Positions 4,324-18,867 of a DNA stretch of 64,000 nt are shown here, piece after piece. Every line of letters begins with the position of its first letter. Within the stretch, counting starts at the first letter, position 1. Source of the DNA: an uncultured Rhizobiaceae group bacterium (GTDB taxonomy: Bacteria > Pseudomonadota > Alphaproteobacteria > Rhizobiales > Rhizobiaceae); assembly GCA_937930635.1 (NCBI GenBank), contig CALHCF010000015.1:1-64000 (forward strand). The letters are read 5' to 3'. Under the pieces are notes generated by a model. The model worked only from the letters and a program-made list of their open reading frames with translations. It did not search any database and was not told where the DNA came from. A program made the translations under genes and the position numbers.

Positions 4324-6786
4324 ATGAGTGCCAAATTACCTGAATCTGCTCCAGTCATCATCATTGGCGGTGGCATTATTGGCCTCTCAACACTCTACCA
4401 TTTAGCGCACGGGGGGGTGTCGGCTGTTTTGCTGGAGCGCAAAAAAATAGCCAGCGGGACAACCTGGCACGCTGCGGGAATTGTTGGCCAGTTGCGCGAC
4501 AGCACCGCCCAGACTGAACTGGGTAAATACACCGCAAAACTATTCCGCGACCTAGAGGAAGAAACCGGACAGGCGACGGGCTATAAATCAAACGGGACGA
4601 TAAACCTTGCATTGAGCGATGTGCGTCACGAGCAATTGCTGCGAACCCATGATCATGCCGTTCGCATGGAAGTGCCTTCACAAATCCTGTCGCGGGAAGA
4701 GGTTGCAGAAAAGTGGCCCTGGATTGGTACGGACGACGTTCAGTCCGGTTTGTTCGTGCCTTCCAATGGTCAGGTCAATCCGTTGGACGTGTCAATCGCA
4801 TTGGACAAAGGCGCAAGACAATTGGGTGCCCTGCGTTACGAAGGCATTGAGGTTGAAAACCTCATTATCAGGAACGGCAAGGTTGTGGGTGTTGCCACTG
4901 ATCAAGGCGAAATCGCCAGCGAAAAGGTGCTGATTGCTGGTGGCATGTGGAGCCATCTGTTTGCCAAAGCGCAGGGCATCACCCTGCCTCTTCATGCTGT
5001 CGAGCACTACTACATCGTCACTGAACCCATAGCTGATTTGCCTCGTGATCAGCCGATTTTAAACATTGTGGAAGAGCGCACCTATTGGAAGGAGGATGCC
5101 GGAAAACTGCTGATTGGAGCTTTTGAGGCGAGGGGCAAACCATGGGCTGCTGATGGCATTCCCAAAGAATTTGAGTTCGATGAACTGCCCTTCGATATGG
5201 AGCATGTGGAGAACGAACTCGAAGTCATGTTCGCTCGCATGCCTATGCTTGGCGAATTGGGCATTCAGACATTCTTCAACGGACCGGAGAGTTTTACACC
5301 AGACGGCAAGCCGTATCTTGGCCCGGCTCCTGAAGTTGAAGGTGTGTTCATTGCATCAGGCATGAATTCCAACGGCATTTTGAATTCTGGCGGAGTTGGT
5401 TTGACCATGGCTGAATGGATGCTGGACGGGGCTCCGTCGCGCTCGATGGGGGCGCTCATGACATCCCGTGCGCAACCGTTTCAGGCGAATACAAAATATG
5501 TCCATGACCGAAGCGCAGAAGCGATTGGTTTTCATTATGGGACACCATGGCAAGGCCGGCAGGTTTGCACGACACGTAACGTTCGCAAGGTTCCGTTACA
5601 TGACAGGCTGGCAGAAGCTGGAGCCGTCTTTGCCGAGCGCGTCGGCTGGGAAGTGCCGATGTATTTTGACTCAGAAAATCCGGTCTGGGGTGATGTGCCT
5701 GCCATGGGGTGGAAGCCCTGGTCGAAACGGGTGAAGATTGAATCTCTTGCTGCACGCGACAACGTGGTATTGATCGATCAATCCATGTACGCGAAAATTC
5801 TTGTGCAGGGAGGTGATGCCGTGAAGGCCCTTAACCGGGTTTGCGGAGCGGAAATGGACGTCGCTGTTGGAACTTCCGTCTACACACAATTTCTGAACCA
5901 GGCCGGTGGGATCGAGGCCGATGTTACGATCACGCGCATCGCCAATGAAGAGTTTATGGTCATCACAGGCCATCCATCACAAACTCGGGATAAAGCATGG
6001 ATCAAACGGCATGCCGAACCTGATTGGCAATTTCAGATTTTTGATGCCACATCTGGCTACGGTTTGCTGACCATTCATGGCCCAAAATCGCGCACTGTTC
6101 TTTCGGCGATTTCCGGCGATGATCTTTCAAACGAAGCCTTCCCATTTGGCTCAGCGCGCGAAATTGATATGGGCTATGCGCGTGGTTGGGCGATCAGGCG
6201 ATCGTTTCTGGGTGAGCTTGGCTACGAATTGATGATGCCTTGCGAGTTCACCCAGGGCGTCTATGACGCCCTTATGCTGGCGGGTGAAGCACATGGCCTC
6301 TCGCACATGGGTATGTTCGCGATGAACGCCTGTCGTTTGGAAAAGGGCTTTCGGCATTTCGGCCATGACATCGGCGAAGACGATACACCTTTCGAAACCG
6401 GTCTGGGGTTTGCAGTAAAGCTTGATAAAGAAGATGATTTTCTTGGCAAAGCCGCACTGGCCGCACAAAGGGCAAACGGTTTAGCCACAAAATACCGAAC
6501 GGTATCCGTGATGGTTGAAAGCGTGACAGCCGCTGCAGGCCCATGGTTGAGCCACAACGAACCCGTTTGGAAAAATGGTGAAATTGTCGGTCATGTGACG
6601 TCGGGAGATTTCGGATTCCGCCTCAATAAGATGGTTGGTCTTGCAAGCCTTTATAAAGAGGACGGTGTGAGCAAAGCGTGGATTGATGAGGGAAATTTCG
6701 ACGTACAAATTGCAGGGAAACTGTATCCGCTGACTGTGCAGGTCGCACCGTTTTATGACGCAAAGGGAGACCTGATGCGCGGTTGA
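4324..6786 (+). CDS. FAD-dependent dehydrogenase with GcvT domain (dimethylglycine/sarcosine dehydrogenase-like)
   Basis: An 820-residue protein in the dimethylglycine/sarcosine dehydrogenase family. Residues 10-40 hold the FAD Rossmann fingerprint ([17 protein letters not shown]) and TTWHAAG near residue 49 carries the histidine that binds FAD covalently in dimethylglycine dehydrogenase. The DAO-type oxidase domain runs to about 430; the rest is the glycine-cleavage T-protein fold with GcvT_C at the end, which in this family moves the released methyl (formaldehyde level) to tetrahydrofolate. Placement after the TTT importer suggests it demethylates the imported amine. The family also contains uncharacterised members with other N-methyl amino acid substrates, so the substrate is open. 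Confidence 0.88.
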
Positions 6787-6812
6787 CGTTGCCGCCATCC
6801 GGGGAGGAAGTA

Positions 6813-8051
6813 ATGACAGAAAAGACAATCCTGGTTGTTGGAACTTACGACACAAAAAATGACGAACTGGAATATATGGTCAGTCGTATTGCTGCGATGG
6901 GTGGCAGAACGCTGACGATGGATGTGAGCGTGTTGGGCGACCCGCAAAACCCGACAGATATTTCCAAACATGATGTCGCTGAAGCAGCGGACAGCACCAT
7001 TCAAGCTGTGATCGATAGCGGCGACGAAAACAGCGCCATGCAGATTATGGCAAATGGGGCGAGCAGGCTTACGAAACAGAAATTTGAAAATGACGAGTTC
7101 GACGGTGTTGTGATCCTGGGTGGCACGATGGGCACCGATCTGGCGCTCGACGTTTGCCGTTCCTTACCGATTGGCGTGCCGAAATATGTGGTATCAACCG
7201 TTTCCTTTTCTCCGCTCATTCCGCCGGAAAGGCTGTCTGCCGATATTCAGATGATCCTGTGGGCTGGAGGTCTTTATGGACTCAACTCACTGTGCAAATC
7301 ATCATTGAGCCAAGCAGCAGGTGCGGTTTTGGGTGCTGCGCAGGCTGTTGAAGTTCCCCAAGGCAAAACTCCTATCATTGGCATGACAGCCCTTGGAACA
7401 TCGTGTCTGCGCTATCAGAAAATCCTCAAGCCGGAATTGGAAAACCGCGGTTTTGAAGTTGCCGTTTTTCATGCAACGGGCATGGGCGGCATGGCCTTTG
7501 AAAGTGTTGCGGCAGAGGGTGGTTTTGCCTGCGTGATGGATTTTGCCTTGCCGGAATTGGGCAATCTGCTGGCCGGGTCTGTCGTCAATGGCGGGGCGGA
7601 CAGGATGCTCAATGCCGGCAGAGCAGGCATTCCACAACTGGTCGCTCCCGGTTGTCTTGATCTGATCGACTTTGCCGGATGGCAGGAGATCCCGGATCGC
7701 TATCAGGACAGACCCTTTCACGCTCACAATCGTCTTATCAAGTCTTCCGGATTGAACGGTGAGGAACGGCGCGAGACCGCGCGTGAGATGTCAAAACGCC
7801 TGGCCAAAAGCAAAGGACCCGTACATGTTTTGATGCCAAACGAGGGTATTGAAGAATGGGACCGTGAAGGCGGCGATGCCTATGACCCCGACGCTTTCGC
7901 CGAGTTTCTCGATGAGATGCGCAAGACTTTCAAAGAGCCTGTAAAATATCAGGAACTTGATTGTCACATCAACGATGAAGCATTTGCGCGGGCCGCACTC
8001 ACGGTACTGGATCGCTGGATTGCGGATGGAACGGTCAAAACAGATGTCTGA
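6813..8051 (+). CDS. Tm-1-like ATP-binding domain protein (UPF0261)
   Basis: A 412-residue member of the UPF0261/Tm-1-like family, whose plant member Tm-1 inhibits tomato mosaic virus replication; the bacterial role is not established. Visible family landmarks are TILVVGTYDTKNDEL at the N-terminus, VVILGGTMGTDLAL, and GMGGMAFE. The ATG at 6813 follows GGGGAGGAAGTA, a better start than an upstream in-frame TTG at 6783. The gene sits between the GcvT-fused dehydrogenase and the trimethylamine-dehydrogenase homologue, overlapping the latter by 8 bp, so it belongs to the same metabolic unit. No catalytic reaction can be assigned. Confidence 0.85.
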   Translation: MTEKTILVVGTYDTKNDELEYMVSRIAAMGGRTLTMDVSVLGDPQNPTDISKHDVAEAADSTIQAVIDSGDENSAMQIMANGASRLTKQKFENDEFDGVVILGGTMGTDLALDVCRSLPIGVPKYVVSTVSFSPLIPPERLSADIQMILWAGGLYGLNSLCKSSLSQAAGAVLGAAQAVEVPQGKTPIIGMTALGTSCLRYQKILKPELENRGFEVAVFHATGMGGMAFESVAAEGGFACVMDFALPELGNLLAGSVVNGGADRMLNAGRAGIPQLVAPGCLDLIDFAGWQEIPDRYQDRPFHAHNRLIKSSGLNGEERRETAREMSKRLAKSKGPVHVLMPNEGIEEWDREGGDAYDPDAFAEFLDEMRKTFKEPVKYQELDCHINDEAFARAALTVLDRWIADGTVKTDV

Positions 8052-10089
8052 CCTGAGCAACACACCTGATCCTTTCAAGATTCTGTTTGAGCCGGTTAAG
8101 ATCGGCCCTGTCACCGCGCCCAATCGCTTTTTTGCAGTTCCCCACGCCACGGGCCATTCACCGCTTATGCCCAATGGGTCAATCGCCATGCGTGAGATGA
8201 AAGCCATGGGCGGTTGGGGAACCGTGTGTATGCAGCTGGCTGAAATCGACCCGACTTCCGACATTTGCGACTTACCTATTGAAAAGTTCTGGGACGATCA
8301 GGACATTGCCTCTCATCGTATCTTGACAGAACGTCTACGGGCGCAGGGTGCGTTGTCTGCCATAGAGCTTGCTCATACGGGAATTCGCGGGCGCGGCATG
8401 GGGACCGGTATGCCCGTTTGGGGGCCATCCAATCTGCCCTGCCTGAAACCCCAGGTGCCGGTGCAATCCAAAGCCATGGATAAATCCGATATCAAAGCGT
8501 TGCGACAAAGCTATCGCGCGGCTGTTCGTCGGTCCCGCGAAGCTGGCTATGATATCGTCTATGTCTACGCGGCCCATGATGCGTCGATCCTGTGGCACTT
8601 TCTTTCGCCCACCTATAATCACCGCACCGATGAATATGGTGGCAGTTTTGAAAACCGTTTACGGCTGATGCGGGAGGTTCTCGAAGAGACGGTCGATGAA
8701 GCGAAGGGGGAGATGGCCGTCGCAATCCGTCTGGCCGTTCATGAAGTGGGTGGGCGCAGCAAGATCAGCCATGACGGTGAGGGCCGTGATGTCGTGGAAG
8801 CTCTCGCCGAACTTCCGGACCTTTGGGACGTCAACATCGCCACCTGGCCACACGACAGCGGCACATCGCGGTTTGACGATGAAGGATGGCAGGAAGAGTT
8901 CACTTCTTTCGTCAAGAACGTAACTTCAAAGCCTGTTGTTGGTGTAGGGCGTTTCACTTCACCCGATACGATGGTGAGTCAGATCAAGCGCGGTGTTCTC
9001 GATTTTATCGGCGGCGCACGCCCTTCAATCGCAGATCCTTTCCTGCCAAACAAAATCCGCGAGGGCCGGATTGAAGACATCCGCGAGTGCATCGGGTGCA
9101 ATATTTGCGTGTCATCTGATGCCTTCTCAATCCCCTTGAGCTGCACACAAAATCCAACAATTAGCCAGGAATGGAAACGGGGGTGGCATCCCGAAATCGT
9201 GCCCGCTGCGGCATCGCGCAAGTCAGTATTGATTGCCGGTTCCGGACCCGCAGGGCTAGAGACCGCACTCGTGCTCGCTCGCGCCGGGCACGAAGTCACT
9301 GTGGCCGAGCAGGCTGCCGAGTTTGGTGGGAGGTGTTTGCGTGAAAGCAGGATCTCCGGTCTTGCGGCCTGGAGCAGGGTTGCGGACTACCGTCTTTATC
9401 AGTTGCGTCAGATAAGCAACGTCTCGCTTTACACAGACAGCGAAGTCACGGCAGAAACAGCGGCTGAATTTGAAGCGGATCACATCTTCGTTGCGACCGG
9501 TGCTAAGTGGCAATCTAACGGTCTTGGACGCACACACTTTGAACCCGTTGCCGGGTTTAGCGATACAACCCTTACCGTAGACGCTATGTTGGACGGTATT
9601 CAGCCATCTGGCCCTGTGGTGATTTATGATGATGAGCATTATTACATGGGCAATGCATTGGCAGCCCATCTCGCGCGTTCAGGTCATGAAGTCACGTTGG
9701 TAACGCCCCAGCCCTATATCGCGGGGTGGATGGGATACACGCTTGAACAGCCTCGCGTCACCAAACAGATGAATGCGCTGGGTGTGCGGGTGATTCAAAA
9801 CGCTGTGGCGACCAGCTTTGACGGTCGCCTCCATTTGACAGACGCCAATACCGCAGAAACCCTGCCCGCAATAGAAGGTGTGCTTCTTCCTGTTGGATTG
9901 AGAGAACCAGATTTGTCACTGTGGAGAGAGCTGGAAACCACAGCCGAAAAAACACTGGTTGGCGATGCGGTGGCTCCAGGTATCATACAGGCCGCAGTTT
10001 TCAGCGGTCACCGGCTGTCGCGAAATTTCTTGAACGGCGGCATTGATGAGATGATGAAGCGTGAACGCCCGGTTCTGTTTGCAGGATAA
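8044..10089 (+). CDS. Trimethylamine dehydrogenase-family iron-sulfur flavoprotein, altered active site
   Basis: A 681-residue protein colinear with trimethylamine dehydrogenase (TMADH): an OYE-type FMN barrel (1-370), a 4Fe-4S site CxxCxxC-x11-C (CIGCNIC then SCTQNP), and a C-terminal nucleotide-binding part beginning VLIAGSGPAGLETAL. TMADH Tyr169, His172, Trp264 and Asp267 are kept (IVYVYAAHD; ATWPHDSG). TMADH Cys30, which binds FMN covalently, is Ala here (VPHATG), and two of the three aromatic-bowl residues that hold the trimethylammonium group are replaced (Tyr60 by Leu, Trp355 by Asp). So it is probably an amine or related oxidase for a different substrate with non-covalent FMN. The ATG at 8044 overlaps the preceding gene by 8 bp. 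Confidence 0.88.
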   Translation: MSDLSNTPDPFKILFEPVKIGPVTAPNRFFAVPHATGHSPLMPNGSIAMREMKAMGGWGTVCMQLAEIDPTSDICDLPIEKFWDDQDIASHRILTERLRAQGALSAIELAHTGIRGRGMGTGMPVWGPSNLPCLKPQVPVQSKAMDKSDIKALRQSYRAAVRRSREAGYDIVYVYAAHDASILWHFLSPTYNHRTDEYGGSFENRLRLMREVLEETVDEAKGEMAVAIRLAVHEVGGRSKISHDGEGRDVVEALAELPDLWDVNIATWPHDSGTSRFDDEGWQEEFTSFVKNVTSKPVVGVGRFTSPDTMVSQIKRGVLDFIGGARPSIADPFLPNKIREGRIEDIRECIGCNICVSSDAFSIPLSCTQNPTISQEWKRGWHPEIVPAAASRKSVLIAGSGPAGLETALVLARAGHEVTVAEQAAEFGGRCLRESRISGLAAWSRVADYRLYQLRQISNVSLYTDSEVTAETAAEFEADHIFVATGAKWQSNGLGRTHFEPVAGFSDTTLTVDAMLDGIQPSGPVVIYDDEHYYMGNALAAHLARSGHEVTLVTPQPYIAGWMGYTLEQPRVTKQMNALGVRVIQNAVATSFDGRLHLTDANTAETLPAIEGVLLPVGLREPDLSLWRELETTAEKTLVGDAVAPGIIQAAVFSGHRLSRNFLNGGIDEMMKRERPVLFAG

Positions 10090-10545
10090 CGCTATCCGGT
10101 TTCTCAAGTGGGTATTTTAGCGGGCTGACCGAGTTTGACGGGTTGCTGATCCCACCTTCCGTTGCGTCATTTCGCCGCAGACCGGGCGGAATGGTAACGG
10201 ACAGCAGGGTCCCAGATTGGCATTGATACCCCGATCTGGCGGGGAGAGTTTGCCAAATAACGGCGAGCAATTTGGGTTTCAAAGTAGTAGGCCGAAGCCG
10301 AAAAAACCTGGATCATCAAGCCGATTGTCAGGTGTGTGGACTGGTGGAGCGTGTTGCTCCGCCGACAACCGATCCACAGTCCGCACTCAATATTCCAGTT
10401 ATAAATAACGTACAAAGAAGAGAAACGTCTCCTCAAAAAAGGAGAACAGAGGCTCTAAATTGAATTTTAACTAAAGTCCCGAATGGTGCCTCGAATAATG
10501 TTGTCGAAATTCGCCCTTTCGACGCATCAGGGGAAGCAGTTTAGT
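10090..10545 (+). other. Long leader/intergenic region before the ammonium transporter-GGDEF-EAL gene
   Basis: About 450 bp without a recognisable gene. Short open frames here match nothing known to me. The one notable element is the nested stem-loop at 10334-10386, annotated separately. No match was seen to the conserved core of the GEMM c-di-GMP riboswitch. Promoter elements could not be assigned with confidence. Confidence 0.4.
10334..10386 (+). promoter_or_regulatory. Candidate structured RNA element in leader
   Basis: GTGTGGACT (10334-10342) pairs with AGTCCGCAC (10378-10386) with one G-U pair, and directly inside it GGTGGAGC (10343-10350) pairs with GCTCCGCC (10356-10363), again with one wobble, closing a GTGTT loop. 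A 14-nt bulge lies on the 3' side. This gives 17 nested pairs about 160 nt upstream of the start codon. It may be a leader regulator, an attenuator or a chance fold; no known riboswitch class was recognised. Confidence 0.35.
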
Positions 10546-13347
10546 ATGGAAGAGTTGCGAGGGGCAATAGACCCCGCGGTCGTCGTGGCGGATATGGGCA
10601 TCACGACCATCAAAGAAATCTGGCTGCTGACAGCTACCATCATGGTCATGTTTATGCAGGCTGGCTTCCTCATGTTGGAAGCCGGGTCTGTTCGATCCAA
10701 AAACACGATCAATGTCGCGCAAAAGAACATTGCGGACTTTATCGTGTGTGGTTGTGTTTTTCTGATAATTGGTGGGCCAATTATGTTGGGCACATCCATT
10801 GCGGGTACATTTGGCATCCTGGGTTGGGGTGGTCTCGACTTTGGAGACAGCACAGTCCGGCTCCAGTTTCTCTATCAATTTGCATTTTGCGCCACGGCTG
10901 CGACCATCATATCCGGCGCTGTTGCCGAACGTATGACTTTCAACGCCTATGTGTGTACCACGGTCCTGATCGCTGCATTTGTATATCCGATTTTTGGCCA
11001 TCTCGCCTGGGGCAACGCCATTATCCCAGACAACCCATCGTTCCTTGCTGATCTGGGTTTTCTGGACTACGCGGGCTCCACAGTTGTGCATACAATTGGC
11101 GGCATGGCGGCTCTTGCAGCTGTATGTGTTGTCGGGTCACGACACGGTCGGTTCGATGAAAACGGGAAGCCAGTCGTCATCCGCGGTCACTCAACAGTGC
11201 TCAGTAATTTTGGCACCATGGTTTTGATGTTTGGATGGATCGGGTTTAACGCCGGTGCTGCCGACCCAACGAGCGGTCTCGTTTCCAAAATCGTACTGAA
11301 CACCATCATCGCCATGACTTTCGGTGGCTGTGCCGGAATGCTTTACGGCTTGTGGAAATCCAAAGGCAAAACTCATCCCAAAGTTTCCGCAAACGGTATT
11401 CTGGGCGGCCTGGTCGCCATGACCGCGGGCTGCGCCTACTACGATCCTTACACTTCAGCACTTGTTGGCCTGTTGGGTGGGCTTGTTGCTGTTGGGCTGG
11501 GAGATATCATGCTGCACAAGTTCAAACTCGATGATCCGATTGACGCAATCTCGGTTCATGCTGGCAGTGGGATATTGGGTACTCTTTTGATTGCTGGCCT
11601 TGCTGAAGAGCAATTCCTGAATGGCTCACGGCTCGAGCAGTTTGTTGTGCAGCTTATGGGTGTCGCACTGGCGTGTACGTTCGCCTTTATCACCGTCTTT
11701 GTGTTTATGAAGGTGTTGTCGAAGGTCTTGCGCGTGCGGGTGTCCGTTCTCGAAGAAGAGCTTGGATTGAACCTGTCCGAACACGACGATGAGTTCGACG
11801 TTACAGAAGCGGAGTCCGTACTCGCTGTAAAATCGGATGAAGAAGATCTGTCCAAAGGTATTGGAGAGACCATTGGTGAAGCTCTGGGCGACTCAAACCA
11901 GCAAATCGGCACTTTGAGCAGAATTGTCAAAGGCGCAAACATCACACAGCTGAGGATTCTTGAAGCAGAGGATGAGATTGTCAATCTGGCGACCAGAGAT
12001 CAATTGACTGGCCTCCATAACCGCAGGGCCTTCAAGGAAGAAATTCTCAATCTGAAAGATTCTTCCAATGGAGACGAAACCGGTTTTGCCGTTCTTTATA
12101 TTGATCTGGATGGCTTCAAGAGCATCAATGACGGGTTTGGTCACAATGTTGGTGACGAGATCCTGAGAGTAGTGAGCCAGCGCCTTGTTGATGCGGCACA
12201 AGATGGAGCTGTTGTATCCCGTTTTGGCGGCGACGAGTTTGTGGTGAAGTTGCCGGTGGATTCGGTCGATCAGTCAGATCACTGGAAAGATGTTACGAGT
12301 GAAATAATATCTTCCATCAGCGAGAAAATAGAGCTGGACAATTTGGAACTGTATGTCGGTGCCTCGGTTGGTGTTTCGCTTTACCCTGATCACGATAGAA
12401 GGCTCGATGAACTGATCCTCAAATCAGATATGGCCCTCTATGAGGCAAAATCCACTGGTAAGGGTAAATGGGTCGTATTTGACAGATCGATGGAAGACCG
12501 GGCCATGCGTCGCAAGGAACTTGAGGCCGATATGCGTGCCGGTATGGAACGCGATGAATTCTTTGTTGAATACCAGCCCCAGGTATCGATCTCTGAAGGT
12601 TCACTGGTTGGTTTTGAAGCACTCATGCGCTGGCGTCATCCCGTTCATGGCTTGATCTCACCGATGGAATTTATTCCAATTGCTGAAGAAACCGGTCTGA
12701 TAGTTCCGTTGAGTGAAAGTCTCGTGGAAACCGCTTGTGCCGCCGCCAGAGATTGGCCGCTTGTCAGAGGCAAGCGTTGTACAGTTGGGGTCAATATCTC
12801 ACCAAGTCAGTTTACCCGCTCAGACGTTTATTCCAGTCTCAAACAAATACTGGAACGTACCGGATTGCCGGCTGAATGCCTTGAAATTGAGGTGACCGAG
12901 AGCATGTTGGTGACCAATATGCAGGAAACCAAGGCCACGCTGGAGCAAATACGGTCTTTGGGTGTGAAGATAGCGATTGATGATTTCGGAACAGGATATT
13001 CATCCCTGAGCTACCTGCAGGAATTCCCGATTGATCGCCTGAAGGTGGACCGCAGCTTTGTCAGGGAGATTGAAAACAGCGCATCTGATCAGCGCATTGC
13101 CAAAGCAATCGTTGATCTTGGTAAGAGCCTTGGTCTTAGCGTTATCGCAGAAGGTGTGGAAACCGAAGGGCAAAGACAGTTCCTGGAAGAACTGTGCTGT
13201 GATCAGCTTCAAGGGTTCCTCTATTCCCCTCCTGTATCGCTGGTCAAAACTCTAAGCCTGATTACACGAGCCAATATGATCAATGACCGGCGCGCAGACA
13301 AGGAAGTCAGCGCAACCAGATTTGTATCATCAAACCCAACGGGTTGA
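10546..13347 (+). CDS. Ammonium transporter (Amt) fused to GGDEF and EAL domains
   Basis: A 933-residue membrane protein. Residues 1-415 are a full Amt/Rh channel with 11 predicted helices and, by alignment to E. coli AmtB, conserved Phe114 (F107), Trp155 (W148), Asp174 (D160), His182 and His338 (twin His), Phe234 (F215); AmtB Ser219 is Ala238. The Amt C-terminal tail LNLSEHD is kept. A linker leads to a diguanylate cyclase domain with intact FGGDEF (561-565) but no RxxD inhibition site, then an EAL phosphodiesterase domain with FEALMRW (691-693), VTES and DDFGTGYSS (812-820). It should convert ammonium sensing or passage into a change of c-di-GMP. The ATG at 10546 is preferred over one at 10483. 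No glnK neighbour is visible. Confidence 0.92.
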   Translation: MEELRGAIDPAVVVADMGITTIKEIWLLTATIMVMFMQAGFLMLEAGSVRSKNTINVAQKNIADFIVCGCVFLIIGGPIMLGTSIAGTFGILGWGGLDFGDSTVRLQFLYQFAFCATAATIISGAVAERMTFNAYVCTTVLIAAFVYPIFGHLAWGNAIIPDNPSFLADLGFLDYAGSTVVHTIGGMAALAAVCVVGSRHGRFDENGKPVVIRGHSTVLSNFGTMVLMFGWIGFNAGAADPTSGLVSKIVLNTIIAMTFGGCAGMLYGLWKSKGKTHPKVSANGILGGLVAMTAGCAYYDPYTSALVGLLGGLVAVGLGDIMLHKFKLDDPIDAISVHAGSGILGTLLIAGLAEEQFLNGSRLEQFVVQLMGVALACTFAFITVFVFMKVLSKVLRVRVSVLEEELGLNLSEHDDEFDVTEAESVLAVKSDEEDLSKGIGETIGEALGDSNQQIGTLSRIVKGANITQLRILEAEDEIVNLATRDQLTGLHNRRAFKEEILNLKDSSNGDETGFAVLYIDLDGFKSINDGFGHNVGDEILRVVSQRLVDAAQDGAVVSRFGGDEFVVKLPVDSVDQSDHWKDVTSEIISSISEKIELDNLELYVGASVGVSLYPDHDRRLDELILKSDMALYEAKSTGKGKWVVFDRSMEDRAMRRKELEADMRAGMERDEFFVEYQPQVSISEGSLVGFEALMRWRHPVHGLISPMEFIPIAEETGLIVPLSESLVETACAAARDWPLVRGKRCTVGVNISPSQFTRSDVYSSLKQILERTGLPAECLEIEVTESMLVTNMQETKATLEQIRSLGVKIAIDDFGTGYSSLSYLQEFPIDRLKVDRSFVREIENSASDQRIAKAIVDLGKSLGLSVIAEGVETEGQRQFLEELCCDQLQGFLYSPPVSLVKTLSLITRANMINDRRADKEVSATRFVSSNPTG

Positions 13348-13497: not shown

Positions 13498-14427
13498 CTA
13501 GCGATATTCGCCGGGCGCTTTCCCAAACACCTCACGGAAGCGCCGGTTGAAATAGGAAATATCGGAAAACCCGGACCGAAATGCGATTGTACTGATGAGT
13601 ATCGGATTGTCGGCCTTCGCGTTTTCCAGAAGGTTCTGGCGTGCAAATTCCAATCTCTTGGCCAACAGGTATTTTGTTGCCGTTGTTCCAAGGGATTTGA
13701 ATCCGCGCTGAACGTGGTGCGTGGGTATTCCAAGATCCTGAGCGATCATGTGCGGCGCAAAATCAGGGTCCCGGAACCGGGTTTCAACATAAGCGATGGC
13801 GCGGCCAAGCACTGTTTCGTCATTGGGCCCCACCGCGTGGTCGGTTGCCGGGCCGCTATCTTTGTGTTCCAGCAGAAACACGCCAACAAGGTTCAGCAAT
13901 GCCTCTTGCAGGTGAGCGCCGCCTTCCTGAGTACCGCGACTTTTGGCAATAATTGCATGGATTGCCATGGCCGTGGGGTCATTGCGTGTCATGCCAACCC
14001 CGCCAGGAATATTGGGGCCGAACCGTTCTTCGAGATCCACACGCGGCAGGTGAAGGGATATCTGACGGCTGCGGTCACCAAAGAATGTGAACTCTGAAGG
14101 GCGTGCACTGTCGATAAGCGCCATATCGCCCGGGTGCAGCACCGCGAACTTCTCGTCCTGGCCCATCAGGGCACGGCCTTCTTCCTGTACGATGAGAAAA
14201 TAATTTTCGCCGTCATCCTGACGGATATTCTTGGAAGTTCGCAGAATTTGCTGCATGTCCGTGGCAACAAGGGCCATGTCCAGCCCCATGTTTTCAAAGC
14301 CGAGAACACCACCCCACGCCTCATCTTTTCCCGCAGAAGGGCGTGGATCAAAGCAGCCGCAGACGTCCAAAAGACTATCTGTAAAGCTCTCAACCGGAAG
14401 AGTTTCTGTTCTAAACTGCAAGTCCAT
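13498..14427 (-). CDS. AraC-family transcriptional regulator (FeaR-like)
   Basis: A 309-residue regulator with an N-terminal AraC-binding-like ligand domain (GENYFLIVQEEG, LHPGDMALIDSARP, as in FeaR-type proteins) and two C-terminal helix-turn-helix motifs (about 215-309) ending RSGFSDISYFNRRFREVFG, the AraC signature. It is divergent from the aldehyde dehydrogenase-GMC-ABC operon, with 138 bp between them. FeaR itself activates an aromatic aldehyde dehydrogenase gene, and the arrangement here fits an activator of the neighbouring oxidation operon. The inducer is unknown. Confidence 0.9.
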   Translation of the reverse strand: MDLQFRTETLPVESFTDSLLDVCGCFDPRPSAGKDEAWGGVLGFENMGLDMALVATDMQQILRTSKNIRQDDGENYFLIVQEEGRALMGQDEKFAVLHPGDMALIDSARPSEFTFFGDRSRQISLHLPRVDLEERFGPNIPGGVGMTRNDPTAMAIHAIIAKSRGTQEGGAHLQEALLNLVGVFLLEHKDSGPATDHAVGPNDETVLGRAIAYVETRFRDPDFAPHMIAQDLGIPTHHVQRGFKSLGTTATKYLLAKRLEFARQNLLENAKADNPILISTIAFRSGFSDISYFNRRFREVFGKAPGEYR

Positions 14428-14450
14428 GTTGATACCTTAGTGGCTGCTTC

Positions 14451-14467
14451 ATGCTTATCAAAAGCAT
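14451..14467. promoter_or_regulatory. Inverted repeat in divergent promoter region (operator candidate)
   Basis: ATGCTT-ATCAA-AAGCAT is a perfect 6-bp inverted repeat with a 5-bp spacer between the AraC-family gene and the aldehyde dehydrogenase gene. A second repeat, GCAATTT (14523) with AAATTGC (14546), lies just before the ribosome binding site of the latter. AraC proteins usually bind direct repeats, so the assignment is tentative. Confidence 0.3.
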
Positions 14468-14565
14468 ATTTTCGTGTGTCGCTAGAATCCAAAGATCTTG
14501 TTGCTCATGTCCAAGACACGGCGCAATTTTTCTTCTTTGTTAAGGAAATTGCAAAGGAGAGTCTA

Positions 14566-15972
14566 ATGACAACATTGGGAATGTGCATCAACGGTGTGGC
14601 GGTATCTGGTACAGATACTTTTGCGGTCAACAATCCATCGACCGGGGAAACTGCCGGCTATGCACCCAATGCAACCTTGTCTGATTTGGACAACGCTGTC
14701 GCCGCTGCACATGAGGCTTTTAAGAGCTGGTCGCTGAAATCCGACGAGGAACTGGCCAGTTATTGCGGCCAGGTGACTGAAAAGATTGGTGAACATGCCG
14801 AAGAACTGGCCACCCTTTTAACCGCCGAACAAGGCAAGCCATTAAACGGTCTTGGGTCGCGCTGGGAAATGGGCGGCTCCCAGGCCTGGGCAGAATATAC
14901 AACAGGTCTGTCCCTTCCGATGAAGGTGTTGCAGGACAATAATGAAGGCAAGGTAGAGTTGTTCCGCAAGCCTATCGGTGTTGTCGGATCGATCACGCCG
15001 TGGAATTTTCCCGTGATGATCGCGATCTGGCACATCATGCCCGCGCTGCGTACCGGTAATACGGTGGTGATCAAGCCATCTCCCCTGACTCCGCTGGCAA
15101 CACTGCGTCTTGTTGAAATCATGAACGAGGTCCTGCCCGCCGGTGTGGTCAATATAGTGACTTCCGATGACAGCGGCGACAACATTGGTGCGGCAATGTC
15201 AGCCCACCCGGATATCCGCAAGATCATATTTACGGGGTCCTGTGCGACCGGCAAAAAGGTTGCGGCCAGTGCGGTTGAAACCGTCAAACGCATGACCCTT
15301 GAGATGAGCGGCAACGATGCCGCAATCGTGCTGCCAGATGTGGACGCCAAAGCCATCGCAGAGGGTTTGTTTTGGGGCGGGTTCATAAATAACGGCCAGA
15401 CATGTGCTTGTATGAAACGGCTTTATGTTCACGAAGACGTTTATGACGATGTCTGTTCGGCCCTGGTGGATTTTGCCAGGAATATTCCTGTCGGTGACGG
15501 GATGAGCGAAGACAGTATTCTCGGTCCTGTGCAGAACAAGATGCAGTTCGAGAAGGTCGCGCGACTGGTCGAGGCGAGCAAAACCAAGGGTCGCGTATTG
15601 CTTGGCGGCACCCCGGGCGAAGGGCTTTTCTTCCCGCCGACGATTATCGCTGACCTTGAAAATGGTGATCCGCTGGTGGACGAAGAACAGTTCGGTCCGG
15701 TGCTGCCAATCATCAAATACAGCAATATTGAAGATGTCATTGTTGCCGCAAATGATAACCCAACAGGTCTGGGCGGTTCGGTCTGGTCCTCAGATATCGA
15801 GGCAGCCAAGAAAATCGGTGCCCGTATGGAATGTGGGTCGGTGTGGATCAACAAACATGGGGCGATCCAGCCAAATGCACCTTTTGGCGGTGTGAAATCT
15901 TCAGGCATCGGTGTGGAATTTGGCGAGGAAGGTCTTGCCGAATACACCGACATTCAGGTGATGTTCTCATGA
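14566..15972 (+). CDS. NAD(P)-dependent aldehyde dehydrogenase
   Basis: A 468-residue aldehyde dehydrogenase superfamily member. It shows the oxyanion-hole Asn motif TPWNFPVMIAIW, the cofactor loop FTGSCATGKKV, the general-base Glu in LEMSGND, and the catalytic Cys in NNGQTCACMKR. The ATG at 14566 follows AAAGGAGAG; a longer frame reaching upstream to 14134 would run through the AraC promoter and gene and is rejected. It overlaps the next gene by 4 bp (ATGA). It would oxidise the aldehyde made by the GMC oxidoreductase to a carboxylate. Confidence 0.93.
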   Translation: MTTLGMCINGVAVSGTDTFAVNNPSTGETAGYAPNATLSDLDNAVAAAHEAFKSWSLKSDEELASYCGQVTEKIGEHAEELATLLTAEQGKPLNGLGSRWEMGGSQAWAEYTTGLSLPMKVLQDNNEGKVELFRKPIGVVGSITPWNFPVMIAIWHIMPALRTGNTVVIKPSPLTPLATLRLVEIMNEVLPAGVVNIVTSDDSGDNIGAAMSAHPDIRKIIFTGSCATGKKVAASAVETVKRMTLEMSGNDAAIVLPDVDAKAIAEGLFWGGFINNGQTCACMKRLYVHEDVYDDVCSALVDFARNIPVGDGMSEDSILGPVQNKMQFEKVARLVEASKTKGRVLLGGTPGEGLFFPPTIIADLENGDPLVDEEQFGPVLPIIKYSNIEDVIVAANDNPTGLGGSVWSSDIEAAKKIGARMECGSVWINKHGAIQPNAPFGGVKSSGIGVEFGEEGLAEYTDIQVMFS

Positions 15973-17579
15973 GTGAAGAATTTGACTACATTATTGTTGG
16001 TGGTGGTTCATCCGGTTGTGTCGTTGCATCGCGCCTGAGCGAGGATCGCGGCGTCAAGGTCTTGATGATCGAGAGTGGCCGCAAGGACACCAACAAATGG
16101 ATCCACATCCCCGCTACCTTTTTCAAGGTTCTTGAGGGCGGCAAAGACGTTACCGCTTATGTCAGCGCGCCATCGGACGCGCTGAACGGTCGTCCCAATG
16201 TAGTGCCGCAGGGACATGTGTTGGGGGGCGGGTCGTCTGTGAACGCGATGCTTTATGTCCGCGGTCAATCCGAAGACTATGATAACTGGGGCCAGCTGGG
16301 TCTGCGTGGCTGGGCTTATAAAGACGTGCTTCCGGTATTTTCCGATCTGGAAAGCAACATGGTTTTCTCCGATGAATTCCACGGGATTGACGGAGAATTA
16401 AGCGTCTCGGAAAAGCGCTATGGTCATCCTCTGAGCCGTGCGTTCATCCGCGCCGCGCAGGAAGCCGGGCTGCCCTATAACGAAGATTTCAACGGTGCCA
16501 AACAAGAGGGTGTCGGGTTTTATCAGACCACAACCAAAGACGGGCGCCGCTGGAGTGCTGCGCAGGCATTCATCCGTAAAGCGGAAGGCCGCAAGAACCT
16601 CAAGATCATGACCGAAACGCGCGTCGCGCGTGTGACCTTTGATGGGACAAAAGCAACTGGTGTTGAACTTGAAGATGGCACCAGGATTGTCTGCAAGGGT
16701 GAGGTGGTTATGTGCGCAGGTGCGATTGAAACACCGCGGCTGCTGCAATTGTCCGGTATTGGAAATGCCGAAGAACTTCGCGGTCACGGCATCGATGTTG
16801 TGCATGACCTTCCAGGAGTGGGCGAGAATTACCAGGACCACATGGAAACCACTGTGCAGGGTGAAACCAAAGACCCGATCTCGATTATGGGTCAGGATAA
16901 AGGTCTCAAAGCCGTACGCCACATGGCCGAATACATGCTCAACCGGAGCGGATTGTTGACATCGAATGTGGTGGAATGCGGCGGCTTTGCCGATGTTTCT
17001 GACGGCGGTATTCCCGATCTTCAGTTTCATGTTCTGCCATTCATGGTCGGCGGTCTCGATCGCGATGCCATAGAAAAGCACGGTATTGCGATTGGTCCGT
17101 GCTTCCTGAGACCCTATTCACGCGGTTCTGTAAAGCTGGCGTCCAGCAACCCCAAAGATGCGGCCGCTTTTGACAGTGGCGCGCTAACCGATCAACGCGA
17201 TGTCGATGTTCTGAAACGGGGCGTCAAACTGGCTATCAATATTCTCGACACTCCGTCGCTGGCCAAGTTGATCACCCGCAGGCACCTGCCTGAACCGGGG
17301 GTCGAAGAAGACGACGCCAAACTGGATGACTATGTGCGTCAGACAGCCAAAACGGTGTTCCATCCCTCATCCACGGTGAAAATGGGTACTGCCAACGACA
17401 AGATGGCTTGCCTTGATGAAGAGCTGCGTGTGCGCGGAACGCAGGGCCTTCGGGTCTGCGATGCTTCGGCCATGCCCAACCTTGTTAGCGGCAACACCAA
17501 CGCACCGACAATGATGATCGCGGAACGTTGTACGCGCTTCATGCGCGGACAGGAAACTTTGCAAACAACAGTCACTTAA
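15969..17579 (+). CDS. GMC-family FAD-dependent alcohol oxidoreductase (choline dehydrogenase-like)
   Basis: A 536-residue glucose-methanol-choline oxidoreductase. It has the N-terminal FAD motif YIIVGGGSSGCVVASRL, the GMC signature GGGSSVNAMLYVRG, the second signature GAIETPRLLQLSGIG, and the C-terminal active-site His in VFHPSSTVKMG followed by SGNTNAPTMMIAE. No signal peptide is seen, so it acts in the cytoplasm or at the membrane face. It starts inside the end of the aldehyde dehydrogenase gene (ATGA). The pair predicts alcohol to aldehyde to acid oxidation. Choline is one possibility, but no betaine-specific neighbours are present. Confidence 0.92.
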   Translation: MSEEFDYIIVGGGSSGCVVASRLSEDRGVKVLMIESGRKDTNKWIHIPATFFKVLEGGKDVTAYVSAPSDALNGRPNVVPQGHVLGGGSSVNAMLYVRGQSEDYDNWGQLGLRGWAYKDVLPVFSDLESNMVFSDEFHGIDGELSVSEKRYGHPLSRAFIRAAQEAGLPYNEDFNGAKQEGVGFYQTTTKDGRRWSAAQAFIRKAEGRKNLKIMTETRVARVTFDGTKATGVELEDGTRIVCKGEVVMCAGAIETPRLLQLSGIGNAEELRGHGIDVVHDLPGVGENYQDHMETTVQGETKDPISIMGQDKGLKAVRHMAEYMLNRSGLLTSNVVECGGFADVSDGGIPDLQFHVLPFMVGGLDRDAIEKHGIAIGPCFLRPYSRGSVKLASSNPKDAAAFDSGALTDQRDVDVLKRGVKLAINILDTPSLAKLITRRHLPEPGVEEDDAKLDDYVRQTAKTVFHPSSTVKMGTANDKMACLDEELRVRGTQGLRVCDASAMPNLVSGNTNAPTMMIAERCTRFMRGQETLQTTVT

Positions 17580-17604
17580 TTTGTACCAATTGGGAGGAAA
17601 ATAA

Positions 17605-18867
17605 ATGAAACATCTGATTTTAGCCGGCTTAACTGCCGTGGGCCTTGCGGGGCTGAGTGCAACAAATGCGGCGGCTGATGGCCATGCAGCAAAGTGCGGT
17701 ATGGGCACAGGCGTACAGGCCACTGGCGAACCGATTAAGGTCGGCGGCATCCACGGCAACGCGGCACCTGGCGATTTTTCGTCGTCAACTGATGCGGCTG
17801 CGGCATATTTTTCATGCGTGAACGCCAATGGTGGCATCCATGGTCGCCCAATCGAATATCTGGTCGAAAATGATCAGTGGAACCCGGAATTGGCTGGCCA
17901 GGCTGCGTTGAAACTGTTGGTCGATGAAAAAGTTGTCGCCATGGTTGGCAACGGCTCATTCCTTGAAATGGCCGTGAACGCGGGCACCTACGCGGAGCAG
18001 GGCATCATGACGATGGCATCTGCCTGTGCTGTGTCAGAATGTTTTGAAAGTTCAAATATTGTTTCAACAAACCAGGGGCCGTTGGCGTCCAACATTGGAG
18101 CCGCACAATTTGCCCAGGAGGAATTAGGTTCCAAAAGCGTCGCCTGTATCGGTCTTGCGATCCCCAACGTGGGTACATGGTCCTGCGATCAGGTAACAAA
18201 GCTGATGGAATCCCGTGGGGGTGCAGGTCATTCGATCTTCCTGAACCCGGCCGCACCCGACGTGAACTCTGCCCTTCTTGAGGCGGTGGCAACAGGCGCA
18301 GATACCATGCTGCTGAATCTGCCTGCAGGTTTGGGCATTGCTGTGCTTAAAGCTGCCGAAGAGCAAGATCTGCGCGATGCATATAAATGGATCGCACCAA
18401 CGCCACTTTATGATCTTTCAGTGCCTGAGGCGATTGGCAAGTATTGGGATGGTGCTGTCTATGTGAACGCTGAACTGGCACCATTCACCGATGGCGGTGC
18501 TGACAACAAAAACTGGATCAAGGTAATGGACAGCTATGCCAAGGCTGACGATCCACGCGATTCATTCTCGCAGTCGGGTTATCTGTCTGCACGTTTCTTT
18601 GTCGACACATTGTTGGCCATGGATGCAGCCGATGTCGGAGACCGCACCAAGGTCAATGCCGCGATTACTGCAATCAGCGGCTATAAGAGCGATCTGCTAT
18701 GTGGGCCATATTATGTGGGCAAAGCCGATTTCCACATGCCGAACCACGCAGGGCATATGGTGCTGATCAAGGATGGTGGATTTGAAGTTGTCCGCGACTG
18801 TTACGACTATGACAGCGCCTATTTCAAACCCCATTTTGCCATTGAAAAAGAACTTGGCCTGCGCTGA
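17605..18867 (+). CDS. ABC transporter substrate-binding protein, branched-chain amino acid type, cysteine-rich
   Basis: A 420-residue periplasmic binding protein of the LivJ-type type I fold. The signal peptide ends around ATNAAA, followed by DGHAAKCG. IKVGGIHGNAAPG and RPIEYLVENDQWNPELAGQAALKL fit the family. Eight cysteines occur in the mature part (for example SACAVSEC, WSCDQ, DLLCGPY, RDCYDY), unusual for this class and suggesting disulfides. It begins the importer part of the oxidation operon, 25 bp after the GMC gene with GGGAGGAAA before the ATG. The ligand is presumably the alcohol or a precursor. Confidence 0.9.
   Translation: MKHLILAGLTAVGLAGLSATNAAADGHAAKCGMGTGVQATGEPIKVGGIHGNAAPGDFSSSTDAAAAYFSCVNANGGIHGRPIEYLVENDQWNPELAGQAALKLLVDEKVVAMVGNGSFLEMAVNAGTYAEQGIMTMASACAVSECFESSNIVSTNQGPLASNIGAAQFAQEELGSKSVACIGLAIPNVGTWSCDQVTKLMESRGGAGHSIFLNPAAPDVNSALLEAVATGADTMLLNLPAGLGIAVLKAAEEQDLRDAYKWIAPTPLYDLSVPEAIGKYWDGAVYVNAELAPFTDGGADNKNWIKVMDSYAKADDPRDSFSQSGYLSARFFVDTLLAMDAADVGDRTKVNAAITAISGYKSDLLCGPYYVGKADFHMPNHAGHMVLIKDGGFEVVRDCYDYDSAYFKPHFAIEKELGLR

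Follow-up and report, generated by a model that had tools for sequence, protein, structure and literature searches.

Ammonium is a central nutrient, and characterised receptors that relay information on external ammonium into the cell are few; in its accessible text, a 2026 paper (PMC12918730) still names only the anammox case. Among solved structures, the closest Amt relatives of the protein described here are Ks-Amt5 (‘Sensor Amt Protein’) and Sd-Amt1 (‘Receptor Sd-Amt1’, solved in ON and OFF states). According to the accessible part of the Ks-Amt5 paper (PMC5764959), this protein has a buried ammonium site formed by Q24, E31, N47, D50, T51, T109 and T112, it transports ammonium inefficiently, its kinase responds to ammonium and, like other Amts, it is a trimer. 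The same part of that paper cites Tremblay and Hallenbeck (2009) for an earlier mention of Amt signalling fusions; with this earlier mention, Ks-Amt5 and Sd-Amt1, the premise of a reading of the present locus from its letters alone (the sequence-only reading), that such fusions are already known, is sound.

We analysed a gene located in a stretch of 64,000 nt from an uncultured Rhizobiaceae group bacterium (contig CALHCF010000015.1, positions 1 to 64,000; hereafter the window). Its product joins an Amt domain to both a GGDEF and an EAL domain, i.e. to the turnover of c-di-GMP, the signal by which cells attach or swim. We consider it probable that the protein is a membrane ammonium receptor that changes c-di-GMP turnover and for which ammonium uptake is not the main role; the receptor role itself is very likely.

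The gene and its genomic context

The ORF at 10483-13347 on the plus strand is uninterrupted and free of frameshifts, and from the start at 10546 it encodes a single protein of 933 residues. The features discussed below are as follows (residue numbers refer to the 933-aa protein).

10546..13347, plus strand: Amt-GGDEF-EAL gene, 933 aa, from the preferred start (the open frame reaches back to an ATG at 10483)
10621..11790, plus strand: Amt domain of the ammonium transporter family, the presumed sensor (Pfam PF00909, E 3.2e-97; a second search agrees)
10654..10740, plus strand: helix 1-2 stretch with Q38, E45, N61 and D64 (alignment to PDB 6eu6)
10879-10917, plus strand: T120 and S123, further equivalents of Ks-Amt5-site residues (alignment to PDB 6eu6)
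11077..11262, plus strand: first pore His H182, second gate Phe F234 and filter position A238 (alignment)
11548..11571, plus strand: second pore His H338 (alignment)
11758..11988, plus strand: Amt C-terminal region (ELGLNLSEHDD), then the linker that leads to GGDEF and has no PAS (Pfam boundaries, alignment)
11989..12465, plus strand: GGDEF (diguanylate cyclase) domain, motif intact, I-site position QDGA (Pfam PF00990, E 3.4e-40)
12532..13233, plus strand: EAL (c-di-GMP phosphodiesterase) domain, signature residues intact (Pfam PF00563, E 6.7e-75)

The start at 10546, already chosen in the sequence-only reading, is better than the one at 10483 because AGGGGA lies 11 nt upstream of it (10529-10534) and four relatives (L004, L005, L006 and L127) have Met at the equivalent M-ELRG. 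A Pfam scan of the 933-aa protein found Ammonium_transp (E 3e-97), GGDEF (E 3e-40) and EAL (E 7e-75), E-values that exclude chance as the source of the three matches; no further domain was found up to E 0.001, and no PAS match. The open frame and these matches confirm the single Amt-linker-GGDEF-EAL polypeptide that had been claimed for 10546-13347.

Nearly full-length copies of the same fusion protein occur in 3 of the genus's 14 other genomes (57-59% identity), and a contig of an uncultured Rhizobiaceae group bacterium (L033) carries the fusion with a truncated start (54% identity over 809 residues). Since three congeners and L033 have the same architecture, the window gene is real and not a chimera. 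No relative of the fusion was found in a plasmid collection at E 1e-100, and a promoter and terminator scan with one promoter type gave no promoter-like plus-strand site at the gene, with totals within chance.

The assembly (3.04 Mb, 77.8% complete) contains one other, divergent Amt on C18 (L134, 1760-3181; Pfam 170 bits), which has Cys aligned at the filter Ser position; the genes beside it, judged by eye, presumably encode proteins resembling N-methylglutamate synthase subunits. The genome also has one PII gene (on C17) and one PilZ protein, and the search for other GGDEF-EAL proteins gave 13 whole-query matches among 14 scored candidates, the window's own protein included.

The fusion gene stands between a run of DAO/GCV_T, UPF0261 and OYE-type genes and an AraC regulator on the opposite strand. 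Its flanks (4324-10089 and 14134-18867) encode a DAO/GCV_T oxidase, UPF0261, an OYE-type oxidoreductase, an aldehyde dehydrogenase, a GMC oxidoreductase and a periplasmic binding protein, a gene set split by the fusion gene and the AraC regulator; we assume that these genes may serve methylated-amine or betaine catabolism. The loci of seven relatives compared with the window ORFs at E 1e-20 gave no match beyond the fusion gene and an overlapping antisense ORF, and with no conserved neighbours in these loci the gene neighbourhood was dropped as a functional clue.

Fused Amt proteins and their outputs

With the window Amt part as query (E 1e-55), matches were found in 43 of 297 genomes of the order, 55 of 297 of the family and 48 of 398 of the phylum, counts that include the window's own genome and unfused Amts. 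Most of the stronger fused cases were retrieved for comparison. The resulting set has 79 distinct closed fused proteins: 59 with GGDEF-EAL, 14 with MCP, 5 with histidine kinase and 1 split; the 59 were assigned by comparison with the window's own domains and the other 20 by Pfam. Left out of the set were eleven matches above 300 bits from the family search that came without a locus, G131 (internal stop), matches of ∼190-200 bits with open frames of 557-662, fused or not (e.g. G555, G441 and G462), and ORFs cut at the end of a stretch (L034, L051, L082, L089, L090, L091, L094, L095 and L072/L129).

The chemotaxis (MCP) fusions are L007, L038, L039, L040, L041/L194, L044, L047, L054, L055, L065, L074/L133, L075, L103/L182 and L106/L185. 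With a channel fold at their core, they are candidate chemoreceptors for ammonium, and none of the literature matches listed describes Amt-MCP fusions. Histidine kinase fusions are L036, L071, L073, L101/L180 and L118/L192, the last with just HATPase and HAMP. Across the window protein and its relatives, a single Amt type is combined with three different outputs.

Three arrangements deserve mention on their own. In L102/L181 an Amt-PAS ORF adjoins a separate GGDEF-EAL ORF; the former has 741 aa in L181 (1449-3671, minus strand), and the latter, of 432 aa in the same stretch, groups with the fused L184, an arrangement that is either a split version or a frameshift. L189 is an Amt-spacer-GGDEF-EAL protein with changed EAL residues and, in the Amt site, N for D50 and A for T109. 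Five unfused Amts (L112-L116) have the five sensor-type site residues, and downstream of every one of them lies a similar ORF of ∼220 aa (by eye).

The Amt domain

The Amt domain scores 326 bits against PF00909 (cut-off 23.2). The sequence-only reading described a complete channel with its key pore residues. This is right for the twin His (H182, H338), the Phe gate (F114, F234) and the filter Trp (W155), all of which are kept, but not for the filter Ser, which is replaced by Ala (A238) and leaves the Trp/Ser selectivity filter incomplete. Such a filter is typical of the Amt/Mep/Rh family and is not obligatory for every member. The Ser is kept in just one of the six proteins of the window clade, the other five having Ala or Gly, versus 70 of 73 other fused proteins.

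In the alignment to 6eu6, Q38, E45, N61 and D64 of the window protein are equivalents of Ks-Amt5 ammonium-site residues. Five of the seven site positions are kept (Q24, E31, N47, D50 and T109 in Ks-Amt5 numbering); T51 is Phe and T112 is Ser, substitutions found in nearly all fused proteins. The five residues are present together in 76 of the 77 fused proteins with a readable site stretch (the exception is L189; L033 and L193, out of 79, have no readable stretch). They are also present in 5 of 13 unfused Amts and were for this reason dropped as proof of sensing; the putative site of Ks-Amt5 type in the window protein fits sensing and does not prove it. Likewise dropped was the length of loop 5, with 20 aligned residues in the window protein and in Ks-Amt5, which fails to separate the unfused Amts (equal length in 12 of 13).

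The pore-block positions of Ks-Amt5 (F27, Y30, F34) read F, L and S in the window protein, and Tyr at position 30 is missing from all 77 readable fused proteins. Because just F27 of the three pore-block residues is shared, the window Amt could still conduct ammonium. Coupling might then run in reverse, from c-di-GMP or GTP bound at GGDEF-EAL to the opening of a working ammonium channel, in the manner of PII/GlnK and AmtB. The intact twin His, Phe gate and filter Trp would agree with this, as would the two pore-block positions that are not bulky and the absence of an Amt gene adjoining the PII gene (the Amts are on C15 and C18, PII on C17). Still, chemotaxis and kinase outputs on the same Amt type fit a sensor better than a regulated channel, and the missing amtB means little because the assembly is so far from complete; we regard reverse coupling as unlikely.

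A receptor for another amine, e.g. methylammonium, instead of ammonium appears rather improbable. The neighbour genes, whose domains are typical of methylated-amine oxidation, would point to it but are not conserved around the relatives of the fusion. The Ala or Gly at the filter position in five of the six clade members would point the same way; against it stands Ks-Amt5, for which the accessible text reports a Kd of 2350 uM for methylammonium vs 41 uM for ammonium (PMC5764959). We keep ammonium as the presumed ligand of the receptor.

The GGDEF and EAL domains

The GGDEF motif and the metal-site Asp are intact in the window protein, as are the EAL residues EALMR, N, EVTE, DDFGTGYSS, K, AEGVE and QG. 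The residue check thus agrees with the earlier statement that the motifs GGDEF, EAL and DDFGTGYSS are all intact, and with the statement that the cyclase inhibition site RxxD is missing, since QDGA stands at the I-site position. No protein of the window clade (0 of 6, the five with a short spacer and L127) has RxxD, which is present in 9 of 39 PAS-type relatives belonging to its order (absent in 30) and in 12 of 14 from a wider phylum sample; as none of the six carries it, the missing RxxD is a lineage trait.

The idea that an intact dual-domain version is unusual finds no support: 59 distinct closed Amt+GGDEF+EAL proteins were recovered and rarity of the design is rejected. Their motifs are nearly always intact. 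The strict GGDEF motif is kept in 57 of 59 (a single letter differs in L161 and in L141); of the EAL catalytic letters, those checked are complete in 58 of 59 (L189 differs at two). LapD and FimX are GGDEF-EAL proteins that signal by contact as silent nucleotide binders, and in spite of this precedent among some GGDEF-EAL proteins it is highly unlikely that the window protein is a catalytically silent binder of c-di-GMP or GTP, given that all signature residues checked in both of its domains are intact.

As for which of the two activities the receptor would control, stronger conservation of EAL than of GGDEF was considered as a sign of phosphodiesterase function and dropped. The EAL-over-GGDEF conservation ratio, taken only from pairs with EAL identity of 55-70%, is 0.79 in the window clade (9 pairs), 0.84 in non-Amt proteins (43 pairs) and 0.90 in PAS-type proteins (312 pairs), with sd of 0.07-0.10; with controls at 0.84 and 0.90 and sd about 0.1, the clade value carries no weight. 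GGDEF-EAL hybrids usually have one active domain, and GGDEF often controls EAL, according to the accessible part of PMC7825114. CdgB, in the accessible part of PMC9683572, shows mainly phosphodiesterase behaviour when overproduced in its own host, and c-di-GMP goes up when it is in E. coli; because of the latter, net activity is unpredictable. The sequence of the window protein by itself decides neither cyclase nor phosphodiesterase dominance and, by analogy, the chances that phosphodiesterase activity would dominate are about even.

The linker and the PAS domain

The Amt C-terminal region continues directly into the linker. The Amt-GGDEF spacer has 61 residues in the window protein and 61-66 in the group made up of the window protein, three congeners and L033 (5 of 59), versus 182-416 in the other 54 proteins. 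All four long-spacer proteins scanned have PAS matches in the spacer; those of L176 and L179 are strong, and those of L127 and L163 stay slightly under Pfam cut-offs; the two short-spacer proteins scanned, those of the window and L033, have none. The trees do not order the PAS change, loss in the window line versus gain in L127. By eye, a stretch resembling the end of a PAS domain can be seen before the window GGDEF.

The linker is 20-34% identical to those of the five closest relatives, versus 53-65% for the Amt part. A structure model was built from four sequences (window, L033, L034 and L036); with a mean pLDDT of 62.8 it is good for fold matching only. Fold prediction of the linker, suggested in the sequence-only reading, gave a mostly helical segment at low confidence, most of it with pLDDT below 50.

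Phylogeny

In a quick Amt tree (69 rows) the window protein groups with its congeners (97), then with L033 (93) and L127 (100), and the sister of this clade is formed by the Amt-histidine kinase-receiver proteins L071 and L073 (100). The branch holding all fused proteins is supported at only 83 in this tree, and two unfused rows have a less certain position in it: the second Amt of L160, with A. fulgidus Amt1, and L002, which is very long. A careful tree (52 rows), made without L002, both L160, L118, L106, L189, Ks-Amt5 and A. fulgidus Amt1, all long or awkward rows, and with one third of the PAS-type rows kept, supports the window clade plus kinases at 100/99 and sets the ten remaining unfused Amts apart by a branch with 99/94 support.

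In both trees the window Amt falls outside the order's main Amt-PAS-GGDEF-EAL clade. Constraining the Amt parts of the two GGDEF-EAL groups to one clade was rejected in the first analysis (p 0.00029; 6 plus 19 rows) and again in the careful tree (AU p 0.00072; 6 plus 13), p-values that are somewhat flattering because the groups were named after the first tree was seen. The GGDEF-EAL tree (65 rows) recovers the window clade at 98, and with L127 at 100. For this part alone, a shared origin with the main clade of the order is not rejected (p 0.43), and an independent origin of the GGDEF-EAL part is not upheld although the Amt part rejects a single clade. The phylogeny that had been proposed for these proteins has two sides: the Amt part is placed with Amt-kinases; the GGDEF-EAL part is compatible with a common origin.

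An exchange of outputs on one Amt type would be the simplest summary. The GGDEF-EAL part may have been captured twice, or may have moved between these Amts, and the protein and its relatives suggest that the link of this Amt type to c-di-GMP was made more than once.

Proposed mechanism

The receptor reading is supported because fused Amts separate from unfused ones, carry interchangeable outputs and keep most of the site residues; support also comes from a genome that has another Amt, PII, other GGDEF-EAL proteins and a PilZ protein. In the sensing role proposed by the sequence-only reading, it is the receptor part that kinship supports, while the ligand (ammonium) and the effect on c-di-GMP, as well as the direction of the switch, the pairing model and the net activity, are what we infer.

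External ammonium would bind in the Amt domain, at a buried site as first seen in Ks-Amt5. The movement would pass via the Amt C-terminal region and the short PAS-less linker to the GGDEF-EAL pair, which would then alter c-di-GMP turnover. The GGDEF domain may be a GTP-binding gate or a second, conditional activity. GGDEF catalysis requires pairing of two domains, as stated in the accessible part of PMC7825114, while Amt is trimeric, which would make pairing within or between trimers a natural switch; the signal would likely depend on the extent to which GGDEF domains pair within one trimer or across two.

A two-way transceptor, in which ammonium would set c-di-GMP turnover, GTP or c-di-GMP would set conduction and pairing would gate the channel, the whole being assembled independently of the main lineage, is quite improbable. 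For the ammonium receptor acting on c-di-GMP turnover, the PAS-less form provides the shortest ammonium-to-c-di-GMP chain among the dual-domain proteins recovered here and is for this reason a clean object for the question of which enzyme is switched; it also suits the question of how pairwise-acting enzymes come under the control of a trimer.

Comparison with known systems

Among the open-licence literature matches listed, none describes an Amt-GGDEF or Amt-GGDEF-EAL protein. GGDEF is absent as a term from PMC10433425, PMC10794816, PMC12918730 and PMC5764959, and Amt from PMC5845226, as far as the accessible text of these papers goes.

Compared with solved structures, the model matches 6eu6 and 8qpf with TM by target of 0.86 and 0.88, respectively. 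Sd-Amt1 of Shewanella denitrificans (PDB 8qj3, 8qj4 and 8qpf), like the window protein, has Amt and then GGDEF on one chain; its seven site positions read Q/E/N/D/F/T/S, the same as in the window protein, and the Amt identity is about 40%. Unlike the window protein, its deposited chain (644 or 661 residues) lacks EAL, it keeps the filter Ser, and RxxD is readable before its GGEEF. Ks-Amt5 of Kuenenia stuttgartiensis (PDB 6eu6), in the accessible part of its description (PMC5764959), is likewise an Amt sensor joined to an output, with five of seven site residues in common; it differs in its histidine kinase output, and two of three pore-blockers, two site residues and the filter Ser are not common to both.

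Amt-PAS-GGDEF-EAL proteins (e.g. L163, L127, L176 and L179) have the same three main domains with intact motifs; they differ in that their spacer is longer (182-416 residues) and gave PAS matches in all four proteins scanned; in the order's main clade of such proteins the Amt is separate from that of the window. Pseudomonas aeruginosa PA0575 (PDB 5m3c) and MorA (PDB 4rnh) share with the window protein the tandem GGDEF-EAL (about 40% identity), but their solved pieces are GGDEF-EAL only, with no Amt. Amt signalling fusions were already known, as was an Amt-GGDEF receptor in the PDB.
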